Source: a virus
Length of the DNA stretch: 33,200 bases
IMG/VR virus record: IMGVR_UViG_3300013103_000033
Coordinates: 1 to 33,200 of that record
Strand: one strand, 5' to 3'
This document shows, in pieces, positions 21,355 to 32,362 of this stretch. A program made the position numbers and the translations under genes. Each line of letters begins with the position of its first letter. Positions within the stretch are counted from its first letter, which is position 1. Below the pieces are notes generated by a model. The model saw nothing but the letters and a program-made list of their open reading frames with translations, had not been told where the DNA came from and ran no database searches.

Positions 21355-21371
21355 CTATGAATCCGTGTTCG

Positions 21372-21428
21372 AGTCCGGACCTTGAGGGAGTCGGGGGGCT
21401 CATAATCCTCGGATAACCCTCTCGGACT
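21372..21428 (+). pseudogene. Degenerate tRNA-like element, CAT anticodon, no T-arm
   Basis: AGTCCGG (21372-21378) pairs with TCGGACT (21422-21428), and GGGGG/TCCTC flanks a textbook anticodon loop CTCATAA (21399-21405) as in initiator or Ile-CAT tRNAs. Only 11 nt separate the anticodon stem from the 3' acceptor strand, so the T-arm is absent. It is probably a tRNA remnant; a T-armless decoy is the alternative. Confidence 0.35.
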
Positions 21429-21478
21429 GACGGCAAGAGCACGCACCCCTGGTAGGGACCAACAGATTGGAGGACACT

Positions 21479-21490
21479 ATGGCAACTTAG
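21479..21490 (+). CDS. Three-codon minigene (Met-Ala-Thr-stop)
   Basis: ATG GCA ACT TAG with an ideal GGAGG 5 nt upstream (21469-21473), 11 nt before the tmRNA. Nothing longer can be translated from this ribosome-binding site. Minimal ORFs of this kind in phages (for example the lambda bar minigenes) cause peptidyl-tRNA drop-off or ribosome stalling, the events that tmRNA resolves. It may be regulatory or chance. The stop overlaps the likely -10 box of the tmRNA (TAGATT). Confidence 0.35.
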   Translation: MAT

Positions 21491-21501
21491 ATTCTTTTCA
21501 T

Positions 21502-21887
21502 GGGGCCGAAACGGTTTCGACGTGTGCGATGGAAGCGTACTGTGCGTGTCCCGCCTTGTGTGTTCGGCGGGTTAGAACGGACACTCAACTCGAACTGCCG
21601 ACAACGTAGTTCCCTTCCCGACCCCGATGGCGACCCCGGTCGCCCGGGCTGCCTAAACGGCACGGGCGTGCCCTGAGTAAGGAGCTCGAGTAGCTCAGGG
21701 GGCGTGATTACACGAGCAAACCCAGGCTGAGTTCTGCGTGATGACGCCGGGTAAACGAAAGCGCAGTAAGGCCGTGATGACTTGTCTCTCGGAAGTCACT
21801 GTCTGAAACGAAAAGAGAGACCACACACGTGAAGATCAGTACGTAACGCGTAAACGGACCCGGGTTCGACTCCCGGCGGCTCCACCA
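21502..21887 (+). ncRNA. ssrA: tmRNA (transfer-messenger RNA)
   Basis: The 5' end GGGGCCGAAACGGTTTCGAC and the 3' end with T-arm CCGGG-TTCGACT-CCCGG pair through GGGGCCG/CGGCTCC, with the G3-U70 wobble needed by alanyl-tRNA synthetase, discriminator A and an encoded CCA. The interior has stems typical of tmRNA pseudoknots (GGCAC/GTGCC at about 21657-21670, CCCTGAG/CTCAGGG at about 21671-21700). It would rescue stalled ribosomes and tag the products. It lies between tRNA-Met and tRNA-Glu in the phage tRNA operon. Length 386 nt, one-piece form. Confidence 0.93.
21597..21656 (+). other. tmRNA tag-peptide reading frame
   Basis: A GCC resume codon at 21597 opens a frame of 19 codons ending TAA: ADNVVPFPTPMATPVARAA. 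It begins ADN and ends AA like bacterial tags, but it is long, Pro-rich and has Arg instead of the usual Leu before the final AA. An earlier in-frame resume site cannot be excluded. Confidence 0.7.
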
Positions 21888-22109: not shown

Positions 22110-22259
22110 GTTGCGGGACTCTGTTATACGAAGGGCTTGGCGCCGTCCTTTCGTAGGTAGGAGACATTAACGGGCCCCATACCAGAGGTAGCACGCGCCC
22201 TGCGAAGACGTGTAGATGCCGAGAGGGAGACCTGACTGAGGACTCTCTCGTCCCGCAAC
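22110..22259 (+). ncRNA. Branched structured RNA with 9-bp closing stem
   Basis: GTTGCGGGA (22110-22118) pairs perfectly with TCCCGCAAC (22251-22259), enclosing a roughly 130-nt multi-branched region. Inside are TACGAAGGG/CCTTTCGTA (about 22127-22155), CTCTG/CAGAG bridging 22120 and 22193, and GAGAG/CTCTC (about 22221-22248). There is no coding potential and no resemblance to tRNA, 6S or RNase P that I can see. Located between tRNA-Glu and the protein gene at 22362. Confidence 0.55.
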
Positions 22260-22361: not shown

Positions 22362-23003
22362 ATGACTGAAGCTAAGAACCCCAAAATTCCGTTGGCCAGG
22401 CTGCTCCTGCGCCGCAAGGAACTCAACGCCCTGTTCCAGGCGCGCTTCGATGCGCTGCGCCTCGAGCTCACCAAGGACGACCTCCAGCGCCGCAAGGTGA
22501 ACGAAGAGACCGACCAGGTGGAGGGCGTGATCTCGCTCGTCGACAAAGCCGGGCTCGAGAAGGAGGCCGACTACTACGCGCACCAGCGAAGGCTCGCCGA
22601 CAGCGTCGTCCAGCAGGCCAACTGGGCGACTGACGTCGAAGTCCCGGCCCACGTCATGACCGACGACGACGTAACAGAGACCAACGACAAAGCGAAGGCC
22701 AAGCTCGCAGAGCTCCTTGTCCGACGCAGGGACCTCGAACAGCGCATGAGCGCCTTCGGGCCTTCCCTCCGCTTCCGCACCGACGACCTGCACGAGCAGG
22801 TCTCGGACAGGCTCCCCATCGCCGATGGTCTCGCCAAGATCACGGAGAAGGTGGAGCGCAAGACTCCCTCGCAGCTGAAGCCATTCATGCAGCACGATGC
22901 GCTGCAGGCCAAGCTGCGGGCAGTCGATACTGTGATCCAGAAGGCCAACTGGGACACGGTCGTGGAGGTGCCGGTCACGGTGCTCTCCAACTTCTCGGCG
23001 TGA
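22362..23003 (+). CDS. Duplicated-domain helical protein, GC-rich
   Basis: A 213-residue protein with GAAGGAGGA before the ATG. It consists of two homologous halves: residues about 8-95 (ARLLLRRKELNALFQARFDALRLEL...QQANWATDVEVP) and about 105-205 (AELLVRRRDLEQRMSAFGPSLRFRT...QKANWDTVVEVP). Both are helical with a closing ANW-x-T-x-VEVP strand. The LLxRRxxL opening recalls the DIP1984-type helical proteins, but weakly. Its codon use is much richer in G/C at third positions than its neighbours, suggesting acquisition from a GC-rich source. Function unknown. Confidence 0.7.
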   Translation: MTEAKNPKIPLARLLLRRKELNALFQARFDALRLELTKDDLQRRKVNEETDQVEGVISLVDKAGLEKEADYYAHQRRLADSVVQQANWATDVEVPAHVMTDDDVTETNDKAKAKLAELLVRRRDLEQRMSAFGPSLRFRTDDLHEQVSDRLPIADGLAKITEKVERKTPSQLKPFMQHDALQAKLRAVDTVIQKANWDTVVEVPVTVLSNFSA

Positions 23004-23015
23004 CCCGGTTCTGAC

Positions 23016-23114
23016 GTGAGGGTTCCCTGGTTCGCCGGGGGGCCCCACTGACGACCCGGTCACCATAGGATGGGCGTAGCGCAGGACTAGGGTTTGCACG
23101 GCACCCTAAGCCGT
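23016..23114 (+). ncRNA. Structured element with UUCG-capped hairpin
   Basis: Directly after the upstream gene, a strong hairpin (23016-23048: GTG-GGG, then CCCTGG-TTCG-CCGGGG, then CCC-CAC) carries a UUCG tetraloop. Further on, TAGGGT (23088-23093) can pair with ACCCTA (23103-23108), and ACGGC (23098-23102) with GCCGT (23110-23114). These two stems are interlocked, so they are alternative folds or a tight pseudoknot. There is no T-run, so it is not a simple terminator. Confidence 0.45.
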
Positions 23115-23169
23115 AGGTGTCACCGGTGGCATCGTCGCAACTCGTTTGATTGTCTACAAAACGATCAAC

Positions 23170-23200
23170 ACTCAATGGACTGGCTGTTAATCCAGAAACC
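23170..23200 (+). pseudogene. tRNA-Asn-like anticodon-arm remnant
   Basis: ACTCAATGG (23170-23178) resembles the 5' part of a tRNA D-arm, and CTGG-CTGTTAAT-CCAG (23180-23195) resembles the GTT anticodon arm of tRNA-Asn but with an 8-nt loop. No acceptor or T-arm with GTTCRA is present. Probably a decayed tRNA. Confidence 0.25.
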
Positions 23201-23222
23201 AAGAGCTAAATGTATCGGAGAA

Positions 23223-23392
23223 TACGTTTATTCAAGGCCACGAACTCCGACTATCGGAACATCAGAACCTTGAAAGCCCGAGTGTACCGAGTGAACGAAC
23301 ACCAGACCAACCGCCTCTTGGGGACATATCCTCAGGCGGTCGACTATCCGATATCCGACTATCCAAGTCCTGGGGCGCCCATCCCCTTTTTT
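23223..23392 (+). ncRNA. Structured RNA ending in a rho-independent terminator
   Basis: TTCAAGG (23231-23237) pairs with CCTTGAA (23268-23274), enclosing TCCGA-CTA-TCGGA (23246-23258). A long hairpin follows: ACCGCCT/AGGCGGT (23310-23316, 23334-23340) with inner GGGGA/TCCTC and loop CATA. It ends with GGGG...CCCC and TTTTTT (23372-23392). The direct repeat CGACTATC occurs three times (about 23249, 23341, 23356). An ORF at 23210-23401 covers this region but runs through the terminator and is rejected. Confidence 0.5.
23372..23392 (+). terminator. Rho-independent terminator
   Basis: GGGG (23372-23375) pairs with CCCC (23383-23386), followed by six T. It ends the preceding transcript 45 nt before the promoter of the HNH locus. 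Confidence 0.65.
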
Positions 23393-23444: not shown

Positions 23445-23450
23445 ACGGGT

Positions 23451-23741
23451 ATGGACAAACACATCTTAGAAAAGCTAGTTGAACAACGTAAGAGCATCCG
23501 GCAAATAGCGGAAGAGATGGGGTGTTCATTCACTAACGCCAGGTACTGGCTTAAGAAGCATAACTTAAAAACGCTAACCAGGGTTCAATCACCTCATTGT
23601 TACGTGTGCGGGGAGACGCGCCCGGAGTGTTTCTACGAGCGGCGTACAAAAATATGTAAAGTTTGCCACAATAGCTACACAAAAAGAGCGAGGACAACAA
23701 AACAGATCCTACGGAATCATGTTGTTGGGAGGGGTGTGTAA
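23451..23741 (+). CDS. HNH homing endonuclease, N-terminal part (frameshifted)
   Basis: A 96-residue product from ATG 23451 (MDKHILEKLVEQRKSIRQI). A helix-turn-helix (about 12-40; SIRQIAEEMGCSFTNARYWLKKHNLKT) would bind DNA, followed by a zinc ribbon (CYVCGETRPECFYE...CKVCHNSY, about 50-77). In free-standing phage HNH enzymes of this family the frame continues into the nuclease core, but here the frame ends at 23741 and the core is encoded in the +1 frame from 23719. A frameshift mutation, a programmed slip or a sequence error could explain it. Leaderless start. Confidence 0.65.
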   Translation: MDKHILEKLVEQRKSIRQIAEEMGCSFTNARYWLKKHNLKTLTRVQSPHCYVCGETRPECFYERRTKICKVCHNSYTKRARTTKQILRNHVVGRGV

Positions 23742-23934
23742 ACGGTGCGGATACTTCCGCTGCCAGGAAGCGCTGGTATTTCACCACTCGGATTCAACTA
23801 AGAAGGATCCCAACTTTAAGAGTCTTAGGGGGTGGAGTCGCGATAGGACAAAGAAGGAGCTTGGGCACTGCGTGTTACTCTGTGCGAATTGTCACGCTGA
23901 AGTCCATGCGGGCATTGACATTAGTGGGGAGTAG
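23719..23934 (+). CDS. HNH homing endonuclease, C-terminal nuclease core
   Basis: A 71-residue frame beginning MLLGGVCKRCGYFRC. It holds the complete HNH core: CxxC, LVFHHSD, and CVLLCANCHAEVHAG, with the HH pair, N and final H that bind zinc and cleave DNA. It overlaps the N-terminal frame by 23 nt with a +1 shift and has no clear ribosome-binding site, so expression needs frameshifting or re-initiation at its ATG. Its stop TAG is supplied by bases 8-10 of tRNA-Gln, so gene and tRNA overlap by 10 nt. Confidence 0.65.
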   Translation: MLLGGVCKRCGYFRCQEALVFHHSDSTKKDPNFKSLRGWSRDRTKKELGHCVLLCANCHAEVHAGIDISGE

Positions 23935-23999
23935 CCCAGCTGGTTTAGGGCATCAGGTTTTGGTCCTGAAAGTCGAGGGTTCGAATCCCTCCTCCCCAT
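23925..23999 (+). tRNA. tRNA-Gln (TTG)
   Basis: Acceptor TGGGGAG pairs with CTCCCCA, with the U1-A72 pair typical of Gln tRNAs and discriminator T. D-arm GCCC...GGGC; anticodon stem TCAGG/CCTGA around TTTTGGT (anticodon TTG); T-arm GAGGG-TTCGAAT-CCCTC. The first 10 nt overlap the end of the HNH frame. Confidence 0.9.
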
Positions 24000-24554: not shown

Positions 24555-24581
24555 CCGCGCAGCTGTGACGTATCACGTTAG

Positions 24582-24705
24582 GCCGAGATGCGGAGAGAAG
24601 TGCGCGCTGCGCGAGGATTTCTGAGTACTGACTGGTTGGGCGTGCTTCTCTATGCCTGCGTTGGTCCGCCCTGGGTGAGGGACCCCGTTAAATACTAATC
24701 TCGGT
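24582..24705 (+). ncRNA. Branched structured RNA between tRNA-Asp and tRNA-Pro
   Basis: GCCGAGAT (24582-24589) pairs with ATCTCGGT (24698-24705). Inside, AGAGAAG (24594-24600) pairs with CTTCTCT (24645-24651), and GGTCC (24663-24667) pairs with GGACC (24680-24684). A small GTGA/TCAC hairpin precedes it. No ORF, tRNA or terminator fits. Confidence 0.45.
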
Positions 24706-24723
24706 ACACCCAGACTTTTCTTA

Positions 24724-24798: not shown

Positions 24799-24802
24799 CC
24801 GA

Positions 24803-24845
24803 GCCTCCATAACTCAATGGCAGAGTGGCTGGCTTTCAATCCACG
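24803..24845 (+). pseudogene. Truncated tRNA-Glu-like 5' half
   Basis: GCCTCCA, TA, D-arm ACTC-AATGGCA-GAGT and an anticodon loop CTTTCAA (TTC) follow tRNA order exactly. However, the anticodon stem 3' side is mismatched, and no T-arm or matching acceptor (TGGAGGC) follows. The sequence runs on into the gene at 24891. Probably a tRNA broken by recombination. Confidence 0.35.
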
Positions 24846-24890
24846 TCGTTCCAGCGAAGACATGCGAGATGAGAAGGGCTTCTTCGACAT

Positions 24891-25176
24891 GAGCTTCAAG
24901 AAGGATCCAGGTGTGAAGAAACCCCCGGAGGCGGGGGAAGAAATGACCGACTACAACATGACGGGCTTTCTTCGATACGCTAACATTCAGTGTAGGTGTG
25001 ATCGACATTTCGGATGGGTCTGCCCTAAGTGCAAGGACGAAAATCTGTGGAAGTACAGCTTCCCAGAAACTGTCAAAGAAGCTGTCGACAAGGGGTGGGT
25101 AGCCTATGTTGTGAGCTACGATTTGACACCTAAAGGAAAAAAACTACTCGACCGACTGGAGCTGCGAACCATATGA
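24891..25176 (+). CDS. Small Cys-containing phage protein
   Basis: In-frame ATGs at 24861, 24891 and 24943 are all possible starts. 24891 (MSFKKDPGVKKPPEAGEE) has AGAAGGG upstream, and 24943 has GGAGG held in the loop of a CCCC...GGGG hairpin. The product ends with IQCRCDRHFGWVCPKCKDENLW, a probable zinc knuckle (CxC-x3-H and CPKC), then a helix and a hydrophobic strand (WVAYVVSYDLTPKGKKLLDRLEL), resembling a small winged-helix-type fold. Its stop overlaps the next start. No function recognised. Confidence 0.55.
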
Positions 25177-25469
25177 AACTCTGGGTAGACGACGTTCGGC
25201 CTGCTCCAAAAGGCTGGATCTGGGCTAAGAGCTACAAACAGGCTATGAGGCTCATGGAAGAAAACGACTGGGATTTCGATGTCATCAGTCTCGACTATGA
25301 TCTGGGCGAGGAGAAGACAGGTTATGACTTACTCTGCAAAATTGAACAGCGGTCAATGGAGTACATGAACTACACTCCGCTTATCGGCGTCCACACATCA
25401 AACATGATTGTCCGTGATAAGATGTGTAATGTTGCGTCTCGTCTCAATGGTAGGCGTCTCAGGAGGTGA
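25173..25469 (+). CDS. cREC-like cyclic-phosphate-processing receiver domain protein
   Basis: A 98-residue protein coupled to the upstream gene by ATGA overlap. It begins MKLWVDDVRPAPKGWIWAKSYKQA and contains SLDYDLGEEKTGYDLL and LIGVHTSNMIVRDKM, matching the conserved motifs of the small receiver-like cREC family (WVDDxRPxPxGW, SLDxDLGxxxTGYDxL, VHxxNxxxxxxM). The family is proposed from genomic context to act in systems handling 2',3'-cyclic phosphate RNA ends. Here it sits within a tRNA and tmRNA island, which fits an RNA-end function, though biochemical activity is unproven. Confidence 0.7.
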   Translation: MKLWVDDVRPAPKGWIWAKSYKQAMRLMEENDWDFDVISLDYDLGEEKTGYDLLCKIEQRSMEYMNYTPLIGVHTSNMIVRDKMCNVASRLNGRRLRR

Positions 25470-25801: not shown

Positions 25802-25874
25802 GCCGTCCTAGCTCAGTCGGTAGAGCAGCGGATTTGTAATCCGCCGGTCACGGGTTCGATTCCTGTGGGCGGCT
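25802..25874 (+). tRNA. tRNA-Thr (TGT)
   Basis: Acceptor GCCGTCC pairs with GGGCGGC (one G-U), discriminator T. D-arm GCTC...GAGC; anticodon stem GCGGA/TCCGC around TTTGTAA (anticodon TGT); T-arm CACGGG-TTCGATT-CCTGTG. No CCA encoded. Confidence 0.92.
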
Positions 25875-25875
25875 C

Positions 25876-26095
25876 TGTACTAGATGCCTTCTACTCCGGA
25901 GGCGGGGGATGTTACATCCCAACAGACGGCAAACTGGCGCATGAAGCCAGGGGCCCGAACAAGCCCTCCGGGGGACCGGGGGCGTACTTTGTAAACCAGC
26001 TCGCCCTGCATCGGGCGTCGCTTGGCTTACAAGCCTACGCTACCCGAGCCCCCAGGAGGACAACATTCGTGCCCTCTCGAGACCCAAGTAGTACA
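25876..26095 (+). ncRNA. Large multi-branched structured RNA after tRNA-Thr
   Basis: Closing stem TGTACTA (25876-25882) with TAGTACA (26089-26095). Branch 1: CCGGAGG (25896-25902) with CCTCCGG (25965-25971), enclosing GGGATG-TTA-CATCCC (25906-25920) and CTGGC-GCATGAA-GCCAG (about 25934-25950). Branch 2: GGGGGC (25978-25983) with GCCCCC (26048-26053), enclosing CGCCC/GGGCG (about 26002-26017) and GGCT-TACA-AGCC (26024-26035). All pairs are complementary as listed. It begins 2 nt after the tRNA and ends before a ribosome-binding site. The frame reading through (25865) is not coding. Confidence 0.6.
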
Positions 26096-26116
26096 ACAAA
26101 TAAAGGAGAGCATTTC

Positions 26117-26434
26117 ATGATTTTTCGACACTACCGAACAGAGGAGAATGGTTGCGCCACGGTTGCGTTCCGGTCGGAGGACGGCCTGGCGGAATTGGGC
26201 GTAGCCTGGTGTTCCCCCGAGGACCCCTTCAACCGAGCCAAGGGGCGACTCATCGCCGCGGGCCGAGTGGAGACCAAGCGCGACAACGGGCACTACCACT
26301 CCATGCCACACACGGGAGATGTACAGCTACGCCCCACGATCTTCGCCATGTTGGACAGTATGAAGAAGCCCCGTTGGTTCGAGGGGTTCATTGGAGAGCT
26401 GGAAAAGGCGGGGGAAGAAAAGGAGAAGGAGTAA
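26117..26434 (+). CDS. Conserved-type small phage protein
   Basis: A 105-residue protein starting at ATG 26117 after AAAGGAG; the longer frame from 25865 runs through tRNA-Thr and the structured RNA. It shows VAFRSEDGLAELGVAWCSPEDPFNRAKGRLIAAGR, a pattern (S-x-D-x-x-x-x-x-G-x-A-x-x-S-P-x-D-x-F-x-R-x-x-G-R-x-I-A-x-G-R) I have seen in many phage hypotheticals. The acidic/basic tail is EKAGEEKEKE. Function unknown. It is flanked on both sides by structured RNAs. Confidence 0.75.
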   Translation: MIFRHYRTEENGCATVAFRSEDGLAELGVAWCSPEDPFNRAKGRLIAAGRVETKRDNGHYHSMPHTGDVQLRPTIFAMLDSMKKPRWFEGFIGELEKAGEEKEKE

Positions 26435-26472
26435 TCAGTTCATACATATCAGAGTTTCCGATCTCGAGACGG

Positions 26473-26646
26473 AGAGCGTTACGCTCTTATACGCGGCTAA
26501 CCTGGGAGTACATAGCGCGGCACTGTACTCTTACGGTTCTACTCGCGTGTTCCCTTAGATCGTCTATAGAACGGACGAAGACGCCAATCTTAGGGAACAC
26601 GCCGAACAGAACCGTAAGGGTAGCATTCCCGCATATCAGTGATATG
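26473..26646 (+). ncRNA. Structured RNA with 89-nt rod
   Basis: AGAGCG-TTA-CGCTCT (26473-26487) and GAGTAC/GTACTC (26506-26511, 26525-26530) are followed by a rod. CTTACGGTTCT (26530-26540) pairs with AGAACCGTAAG (26608-26618). GCGTGTTCCCTTAGAT (26545-26560) pairs with ATCTTAGGGAACACGC (26587-26602) with one mismatch. CGTCT/AGACG lies at the tip. CATAT...ATATG (26632-26646) closes the region. It ends 9 nt before tRNA-Leu (TAG). No known family. Confidence 0.6.
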
Positions 26647-26654
26647 TAGAGCTA

Positions 26655-26737
26655 GCGGGGGTGGCGGAACTAGGTAGACGCGCCAGCCTTAGGAGCTGGT
26701 GGGATTTCCCGTGCAGGTTCGATTCCTGTCCCCCGTA
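26655..26737 (+). tRNA. tRNA-Leu (TAG)
   Basis: Class II tRNA: acceptor GCGGGGG with CCCCCGT, anticodon stem CCAGC/GCTGG around CTTAGGA (anticodon TAG), variable arm TGGGATTTCCCGT, T-arm GCAGG-TTCGATT-CCTGT, discriminator A (Leu identity). Confidence 0.92.
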
Positions 26738-29795: not shown

Positions 29796-29807
29796 GACAC
29801 GTTAGAA

Positions 29808-29937
29808 CATTATCCCCCTCATCAAGGAGCCGCAGCGCACGACAGAAATAAAATCTCCGTCGAACAGCATCGTACACTCGTGTCGTTCGTCGATATTATT
29901 TCTGTCAGCGCACGCGCCCTTGATGATGGGAATAATG
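29808..29937 (+). ncRNA. 130-nt rod-shaped RNA
   Basis: A 20-nt arm, CATTATCCCCCTCATCAAGG (29808-29827), pairs with 29918-29937 over 18 of 20 positions. After an internal loop, GACAGAAATAAAAT (29841-29854) pairs with 29893-29906 at 13 of 14 positions. The tip contains CGTCGAAC/GTTCGTCG and ACAC/GTGT. There is no coding frame. A -10-like TATGAT overlaps its 3' end for the next gene. Confidence 0.6.
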
Positions 29938-29966
29938 TATGATTCTAGTAGTAGAAGGAGGACCCT

Positions 29967-30191
29967 ATGATTCACTGCACCAATGGGTACAACCCACCCC
30001 AGTATCGCATCGCCTGTACCGGCAAGTGGGTCACACCCGACTTCGACAAGGATGTAGCACCTCTTGACGACATCTTCATCGCCACGGACGGTACCAAATA
30101 CACACCTGAAGTCCAGTACTCCAACTGTCCCAAGTGCTTGAACGCCATCCGAAATGAGGAGTTGGCCCTCGAGCCTGATCCTGAAGATTAG
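29967..30191 (+). CDS. Small zinc-ribbon-like phage protein
   Basis: A 74-residue protein with AAGGAGG before the ATG. It contains HCTNG, ACTGKWV and a CPKCLNAI knuckle, giving C-x-C and CPKC pairs suited to one zinc ion. The C-terminus is acidic. It ends 7 nt before tRNA-Leu (CAA). Similar tiny zinc proteins are frequent in phage tRNA regions. Function unknown. Confidence 0.65.
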   Translation: MIHCTNGYNPPQYRIACTGKWVTPDFDKDVAPLDDIFIATDGTKYTPEVQYSNCPKCLNAIRNEELALEPDPED

Positions 30192-31668: not shown

Positions 31669-31680
31669 CAAAGTGTTGGC

Positions 31681-31890
31681 TTGCGTTAGTGCACGCAACC
31701 GAGAGAGCTACTCTCTCGAATCGCGCATAGTTTACGCGCACACTTGCTCCGTCCGCTGTCTCTGGATGCACACCACGACACAACTACTTGAATGCGCTCA
31801 TGCCAAGGGATTGGCACTCGCTTTCCTCGGTTCAAGCAGTTGCAGAAATGTCCGACGTTAGCATCCAGAGATGCCTATCCCTCAGCGGAC
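31681..31890 (+). ncRNA. Structured RNA: three hairpins and a 140-nt rod
   Basis: Hairpins: TTGCGT/ACGCAA (31681-31698), CGAGAGAG-CTA-CTCTCTCG (31700-31718), and GCGC/GCGC (31723-31739). The rod: GTCCGCTG (31751-31758) with CAGCGGAC (31883-31890) and TCTCTGGATGC (31759-31769) with GCATCCAGAGA (31861-31871), continuous on the 5' side. An inner CAACTACTTGAA (31781-31792) pairs with TTCAAGCAGTTG (31831-31842) at 11 of 12. The apical hairpin is TGCCAA-GGGA-TTGGCA with a GNRA-type loop. It lies between tRNA-Leu (TAA) and the HNH gene. Confidence 0.6.
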
Positions 31891-31948
31891 TCTACAAAGT
31901 AAGCAACACTCATTGTTACATATTGTAGAACATTGTATTATTAAGCTC

Positions 31949-32362
31949 ATGCCGAATACAGACAAAAGAAAGTATACCGCTTACATGCGGGCCTACATGC
32001 TTAAGCGCTACCATGAACGCCGAACGCGCGCAGTGACATTGTTAGGCGGAGTTTGTGTAGTTTGCGGAGAATCTCATGACTTAGAAATCGACCACATCGA
32101 CCGTAAAGAGAAATCTTTTTCGATTTCTAAGTTGTGGAGCGGAAGAGAAGACCGGTTTTTAAAAGAACTTAAGAAGTGCCAATTACTGTGCAGAAAACAC
32201 CATCAGCAAAAAAGTATCAAAGAGAGAGGATGGAATTCCCGAAGCTCACACGGAACAGTAGCCGCATACACGCACGGAAAATGTCGTTGCGAAAAATGTA
32301 AAAAGGCAAAACGTAAACAGATGCGCGAATACCGAAAAAGTAGGAATGGACGGGTACCCTAG
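31949..32362 (+). CDS. HNH homing endonuclease
   Basis: A 137-residue protein from ATG 31949 (MPNTDKRKYTAYMR). A basic N-terminus leads to the nuclease core: CVVC (zinc), LEIDHIDRKEKSFS (the first His region), CQLLCRKHHQQKS (N/H and zinc). The C-terminal RSSHGTVAAYTHGKCRCEKCKKAKRKQ is a second Cys pair typical of DNA-binding tails of such enzymes. The TAG stop lies in the tRNA-Lys gene (15-nt overlap), as for the other HNH locus with tRNA-Gln. No intron is seen, so it is free-standing and intergenic. Confidence 0.85.
   Translation: MPNTDKRKYTAYMRAYMLKRYHERRTRAVTLLGGVCVVCGESHDLEIDHIDRKEKSFSISKLWSGREDRFLKELKKCQLLCRKHHQQKSIKERGWNSRSSHGTVAAYTHGKCRCEKCKKAKRKQMREYRKSRNGRVP

Follow-up and report, generated by a model that had tools for sequence, protein, structure and literature searches.

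Retron-like RNAs, probable templates of a phage-encoded reverse transcriptase, in the tRNA arrays and elsewhere in the genomes of a group of large phages

Introduction

What is the structured sequence of 220 nt that lies directly behind a tRNA-Thr gene in an uncultivated virus? The stretch of DNA analysed here, called the window throughout, is the 33.2-kb (33,200 nt) virus record IMGVR_UViG_3300013103_000033. An earlier note on this DNA described the 220 nt as a single two-branch RNA fused to the 3′ side of the tRNA. The analysis below indicates that the element (unit A) is one member of an RNA family whose plan is that of a retron msr-msd, and that it is probably a template for a phage-encoded, retron-type reverse transcriptase (RT).

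Results

A structured RNA between tRNA-Thr and a small protein gene

The 3′ end of tRNA-Thr(UGU) lies at 25874/25875 and the 220-nt region begins at the next base, so that the adjacency described earlier holds but the proposed gap of 2 nt does not. Unit A occupies the spacer between this tRNA and a small protein gene (Table 1), and its ends had been placed exactly in the earlier note. Its minimum free energy (MFE) is −101.1 kcal/mol; dinucleotide shuffles give −78.8 ± 4.4 (z −5.1), and none of 200 reached the stability of unit A. In a scan from 15 to 33 kb in 200-nt steps only a handful of stretches fell below a z of −3; unit A was among them, and the others include 26501–26700, 29801–30000 and 31701–31900. 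The 7-bp closing stem noticed previously is perfect and has a pairing probability of about 1 in its core. The two composite branches thought to lie inside it, CCGGAGG/CCTCCGG and GGGGGC/GCCCCC, are present as strings but have a pairing probability of 0, and forcing both of them costs 16 kcal/mol (−86.6 vs −102.6). The favoured fold instead places one long imperfect hairpin after three short ones.

Table 1. Positions of unit A, its parts, its neighbours and its paralogs in the window (a1 and a2, closing-stem arms; P2 and P3, short hairpins)
Feature	Position	Strand	Remark
tRNA-Thr(UGU)	25802–25875	+	adjoins unit A
Unit A, whole retron-like RNA	25876–26095	+	signature a1-G..P3..AG-a2; z −5.1
a1, 5′ closing-stem arm TGTACTA	25876–25882	+	pairs with 26089–26095
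G right after a1, predicted priming nucleotide	25883	+	context TAGA; putative function
Hairpin P2, GCCTTC/GGAGGC	25886–25903	+	MFE
Hairpin P3, GGGATG-TTA-CATCCC triloop, predicted RT-binding	25906–25920	+	common to all units; putative binding
Hairpin CTGGC/GCCAG	25934–25950	+	MFE
Long imperfect hairpin, predicted msd (template)	25951–26074	+	MFE; putative template role
AG immediately before a2	26087–26088	+	enriched in units
a2, 3′ closing-stem arm TAGTACA	26089–26095	+	closing-stem pairing
Small protein gene, no known family	26117–26434	+	105 aa; separate from unit A RNA
Unit B, TACATATCA-G .. CAG-TGATATGTA	26443–26648	+	P3 26473–26487; ortholog in G004
Unit C, TTCTACTA-G .. TAG-TAGTAGAA	29727–29956	+	P3 29761–29775; ortholog in G004
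Unit D, AGTGTTG-G .. AAG-CAACACT	31672–31910	+	P3 31700–31718

A reading frame is open from 25865 through unit A, and translation of 25865–26434 as one protein would have overturned the RNA interpretation. The codon score of this part of the frame is −0.11, against +0.08 to +0.31 for eight genes of the window, which is the value of non-coding sequence. The start of the 105-aa gene at ATG 26117 is preceded by AAAGGAGA, and a homolog in the relative G006 (36% identity) starts at about the equivalent of this ATG, with an SD-like site of its own upstream. The non-coding codon use and the later start in G006 rule out unit A as the coding N-terminus of the longer frame.

The Rfam search proposed in the earlier note matched unit A to no family, msr included, also at relaxed thresholds; the covariance models returned only tRNA, tmRNA and chance-level matches. 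No convincing DNA homologs of unit A were found, and comparison with E. coli 16S, 23S and 5S rRNA gave no match, so that mimicry of rRNA was rejected for this unit. A separate phage RNA that copies an rRNA hairpin was seen in relative G004, just after tRNA-Pro (L045 17141–17170): its 30 nt match E. coli 23S rRNA 1059–1088 at 93% (E 5e-6), which we take to be hairpin H43 of the GTPase-associated centre, and the element is closed by GGCGGG/CCCGCC.

Four paralogous units in the window

The supposed single element turned out to belong to a family with a retron-like plan, for the window holds four paralogous RNAs, A to D (Table 1). The order of parts in a unit is a1, G, a short hairpin, a G-NWA-C triloop hairpin, a long variable hairpin, AG and a2. 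In folds of the structured spacers the triloop hairpin P3, after which come more short hairpins and then the long one, has 6–8 bp and a UUA or CUA loop closed by G–C, and a search of the plus strand of the window found it exclusively in the four unit spacers. Closing stems are of 7–9 bp in the window (7 in A and D) and of up to 19 bp in relatives, and the contexts of the G at the inner end of a1 are TAGA, CAGA, TAGC and TGGC. Unit B ends 6 nt before tRNA-Leu, unit C lies between two ORFs without an adjacent tRNA, and unit D starts 2 nt after tRNA-Leu(UAA) and has a G004 ortholog that can be aligned over its full length. Apart from their own pairing arms, nothing in units A–D matches elsewhere in the window.

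Several further features of the tRNA-rich part of the window were recorded. The spacers 22112–22258, 23003–23390 and 24557–24720 between tRNAs look structured and are without the unit signature; one of them is closed by GCGGGAC/GTCCCGC. A phage tmRNA lies at 21502–21887, for which the tag called by ARAGORN looks wrong: the frame GCC GAC AAC GTA GTT.. yields ADNVVPFPTPMATPVARAA before a stop and resembles the G010 tag ADNVVELFPKVEAAPVAKAA, likewise followed by a stop. The non-coding stretch upstream of it, 21357–21500, is inside a block 93% identical to G004. At 24802–24899 a tRNA-Glu-like gene breaks off after 53 nt and runs straight into coding sequence; in G004 about 1.5 kb separate the two parts, and the window looks as though it had undergone a deletion by comparison. 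A cREC_REC domain protein (cyclic-phosphate processing receiver, PF20274, E 5e-24) is encoded within the tRNA cluster at 25173–25469, and HNH endonuclease genes stand beside tRNAs at 31871–32362 (PHROGs) and at about 23450–23935 (judged by sequence alone). In G010 a tRNA-like gene with a two-base anticodon call directly follows tRNA-Pro (L063 7974–8046).

The unit signature and its conservation in relatives

Relatives were found through the major capsid protein, and all those that bear units are uncultivated contigs. The full signature was matched 29 times (one match read twice) in the window and its relatives, against 1.5 times in dinucleotide shuffles. When the closing helix was chosen blind to its flanks, G followed a1 in 27 of 38 cases and AG preceded a2 in 24 of 38; in a wider set treated in the same way, 31 of 68 had both. 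The predicted msd part has a median z of −2.7 over 52 units, and P2 across units is only weakly better than shuffles. Units of the relatives often stand in tandem, two of them filling the spacer from tRNA-Gln to tRNA-Glu in G010, and extra copies sit tens of kilobases away. The relatives Arash and D69, which have no RT, gave one weak signature match in 400 kb.

Conservation of base pairs was another point on which the earlier note had staked its RNA. Alignment of units B, C and D with their G004 orthologs, using two-sequence consensus folds, yielded 26 two-sided, compensatory changes and 12 one-sided ones, counts that lean towards structure because the folds were fitted to the alignments, the lack of broken pairs being by construction. 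In P3 of unit B, for example, AGAGCG/CGCTCT in the window corresponds to AGAACG/CGTTCT in G004. Pair conservation is seen for these three units, no ortholog of unit A having been found.

A retron-type reverse transcriptase in the relatives

The msr-msd plan of the RNA predicts an RT, which was then searched for. Of 24 records, 11 encode an RT of family PF00078, 360–420 aa in length, among them that of the sister phage G003, whose capsid protein (locus L004) is 95% identical to that of the window. The best profile matches of these RTs are retron models; one RT searched by sequence matched nothing but retron RTs in the PDB, and in a fold search with its AlphaFold2 model (mean pLDDT 83) the 16 best matches were all retron RTs. 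By profile, sequence and fold alike, DRT2, group II and diversity-generating retroelement (DGR) RTs rank behind those of retrons. The strict NAXXH and VTG motifs are absent: xAxxH or something similar is found, with the H invariant, and LG replaces TG. Validated retrons also vary in these two motifs (PMC6868368).

No RT is encoded in the 33.2-kb fragment that forms the window. Since the sister G003 has both the RT and a unit in the gap between DNA polymerase and terminase, we expect the phage of the window to carry an RT in the missing part of its genome. G004, G013 and G014 carry units and gave no RT, though these contigs may be incomplete. The contigs L184/L185 were considered as the RT-bearing piece of the window's phage and rejected, there being no overlap with the last 1.7 kb of the window or with the adjoining contig G001; their RT is just 43% identical to that of G003. 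A descriptor search within about 1.5 kb of the RT found no units.

The association with an RT bears on whether the units might simply be structured spacers of a tRNA transcript, protecting the 3′ side of tRNA-Thr, aiding processing or serving as the next gene's leader, without any reverse transcription. Units A, B and D do adjoin tRNAs, as do the two in the tRNA-Gln to tRNA-Glu spacer of G010, and A and C end shortly upstream of an SD site. Unit C and most of the relatives' units are, however, away from tRNAs, and a spacer role leaves the G after a1, the AG before a2 and the company of a retron-type RT unexplained; we consider it improbable. The tRNA-Thr and unit A may nevertheless share one transcript, in which case the cut that frees the 3′ end of the tRNA could define the 5′ end of unit A as well. 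Co-transcription with a tRNA and release by tRNA processing are plausible for units A and D. Of the single precursor suggested before, the structured RNA directly behind tRNA-Thr stands; that it is an extension of the tRNA does not, because the same kind of RNA occurs at places without a tRNA, namely at unit C in the window and in the polymerase/terminase gap of relatives.

Contigs selected by their RT carry the units on the RT strand

The signature had been derived from the same phage group, and the converse test was made on mostly new contigs: 80 viral contigs were fetched by RT alignment alone. They contained 39 signature matches on the RT strand and 2 on the other, where shuffles gave 0.33 each. 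Of the 39 matches about 9 are in genomes from which the signature had been derived; as several contigs are also near-duplicates, the distinct new units number about 25 by our count. The matches on the RT strand lie about 7–10 kb upstream of the RT, except for one marginal match in L248.

Most of the RT contigs have a common gene order, consisting of DNA polymerase A, a gap, terminase (on the other strand), a MoxR-type ATPase, a DUF2201 VWA/metallopeptidase, a hypothetical protein and the RT, and the RNAs lie within the polymerase/terminase gap. Contigs with this order number about 58, of which by our count 24 have a signature match, against 1 of about 22 without it; in several of the contigs that lack a match, a closing helix with both G and AG lies inside the gap or close to it. 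In L205 and L208 the units are in tandem; their front part hardly varies, their hairpin is a variant one and their template parts differ. In G011 and G012 the gap is only 42 nt long and the units are in arrays elsewhere. The genes upstream of the RT in G003 include the MoxR-type ATPase at L187 4283–5533 (AAA_5, just under the cut-off) and the DUF2201 metallopeptidase/VWA protein at L187 7713–9341.

The constancy of this neighbourhood raises the alternative that the RNAs bind another member of the module (the MoxR-type ATPase, the DUF2201 protein or the hypothetical protein), or serve as signals for packaging or replication next to terminase and DNA polymerase, with the RT a mere neighbour. The ancestral site of the RNA is indeed the polymerase/terminase gap, and the RT is no more constant there than the genes for the ATPase and the VWA protein. 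Against this, the proteins known to use RNAs of such a plan are retron-type RTs (PMC6868368), and both the strand bias of 39 to 2 and the copies tens of kilobases away misfit a cis-acting DNA site. We hold this explanation, too, to be unlikely. A possible role for the ATPase and the DUF2201 protein, whose genes precede that of the RT in most related contigs, is that of partners of the RT.

Discussion

Comparison with retrons and other RT systems

Published retrons have a1/a2 inverted repeats of about 8–30 nt and a priming G at the inner end of the msr strand of the stem, mostly in the context TAGC but also in CAGA or CAGC (PMC6868368). The units have such closing repeats, with A and D at 7 bp just below the published range; a G with TAGC- or CAGA-like context is found at the expected place in the window and is enriched in the family, its use as primer being predicted. 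The hairpin bound by RT-Eco1 has a stem of 8 bp and a loop of 3 nt (PMC6868368). The short hairpins with loops of 3–10 nt expected of an msr are present as P2 and P3, and the msd is represented by a long hairpin, predicted in the case of unit A. In the closing stem with its G, the short hairpins including a triloop, the long hairpin and the retron-type RT of relatives, the system therefore resembles retrons such as Eco1/Ec86 and Eco2/Ec67. It differs from them in having several RNAs per RT, in placing these at 7–10 kb upstream of the RT or at distances of tens of kilobases, in packing some of them among tRNA genes, and in the altered NAXXH and VTG motifs of the RT. Points that speak against a retron-like reading are the lack of an RT in the window fragment and in some relatives with units, the distance of the RNAs from the RT, the altered RT motifs, the failure to find an ortholog of unit A, its 7-bp closing stem, and the different RNA of the P2-like phage retrons described below. 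Because the RNA has the features of a retron RNA, while msr-msd and RT are at least 7–10 kb apart rather than in one compact cassette and the strict RT motifs are altered, our view is that the RNA works like a retron RNA, with a retron-type RT in relatives, and that the system is a variant and not a canonical retron.

The nearest precedent, as far as it is cited in PMC6868368, is Nex1 (Ne160) of Nannocystis exedens, where repeated msr-msd-like sequences occur without a nearby RT. It shares with the present system many RNA copies away from the RT, but according to that citation is on a bacterial chromosome, whereas here we have a phage lineage, an RT in the same genome, variable templates and a conserved gene neighbourhood. 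The retrons of P2-like phages (pro147, 4LV2017, vB_YenM_56.17) also place a retron-type RT in a phage genome, although their RTs are only 23–27% identical to a query of the present group, and the unit signature was not found upstream of the RT in these three. A search for literature reports of phage retron RNA arrays found none, which is weak evidence of absence as most subscription journals were outside its coverage.

Diversity-generating retroelements pair an RT with an RNA template and are often carried by phages, and the present RT is a PF00078 protein. It is nevertheless very improbable that the units are the template of a DGR or of some other RT system that is not retron-like. Retron RTs come first in the profile, sequence and fold comparisons, with DGR RTs ranked below them in the fold search; in alignment the present RT shows QGxPxS and not the SQ motif of DGR RTs; and the long hairpins of A–D lack the second copy in the window that a DGR repeat pair would provide, other than their own pairing arms. 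We give practically no credence to three decayed tRNA genes, a reading to which the slot in G006 lends agreement of place and length (tRNA-Met, -Val and -Ala, about 220 nt in total), as neither ARAGORN nor the tRNA covariance model detects anything in unit A up to E = 10, and the four paralogs have a different layout in common.

A model for the retron-like RNAs

Across many related phages, an RNA family of common layout and conserved structure lies on a consistent strand and is associated with a retron-type RT. By analogy with retrons, unit A would be transcribed with the tRNA cluster and fold via its closing stem; the RT would recognise the triloop hairpin P3, prime DNA synthesis on the 2′-OH of G25883 and copy the long variable hairpin from about position 26088 upstream. 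The predicted product is a small branched single-stranded DNA, with start and stop sites that we infer from the retron plan. A single RT may serve several RNAs, which have a shared front plan and different template parts, and the phage would then make a set of different small DNAs in infection. On balance we favour the view that the genome core of this widespread large-phage lineage includes a multi-template retron, in which a single RT, its gene grouped with those for a MoxR-type ATPase and a DUF2201 VWA/metallopeptidase protein, copies RNAs with a constant front and variable templates, some of them packed in tRNA arrays, into a panel of single-stranded DNAs.

In conclusion, our analysis suggests that the large phages of an entire group produce, while infecting, several kinds of small single-stranded DNA, and one has to ask what benefit a phage would have from these. 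Our first guess is that the DNAs act as decoys or inhibitors of host defence, and our second is the exclusion of rival phages. Recombination donors are also a candidate, although the lack of any match to units A–D elsewhere in the window lends this role no support. Natural RTs that apparently accept many template parts are of interest for DNA production in cells, and the RNA signature described here lets others find further copies. Bacteria are known to carry retrons for defence, as cassettes in which each RT has a single RNA; in these phages, retron-like parts look like core equipment of the phage itself, with many templates per RT.
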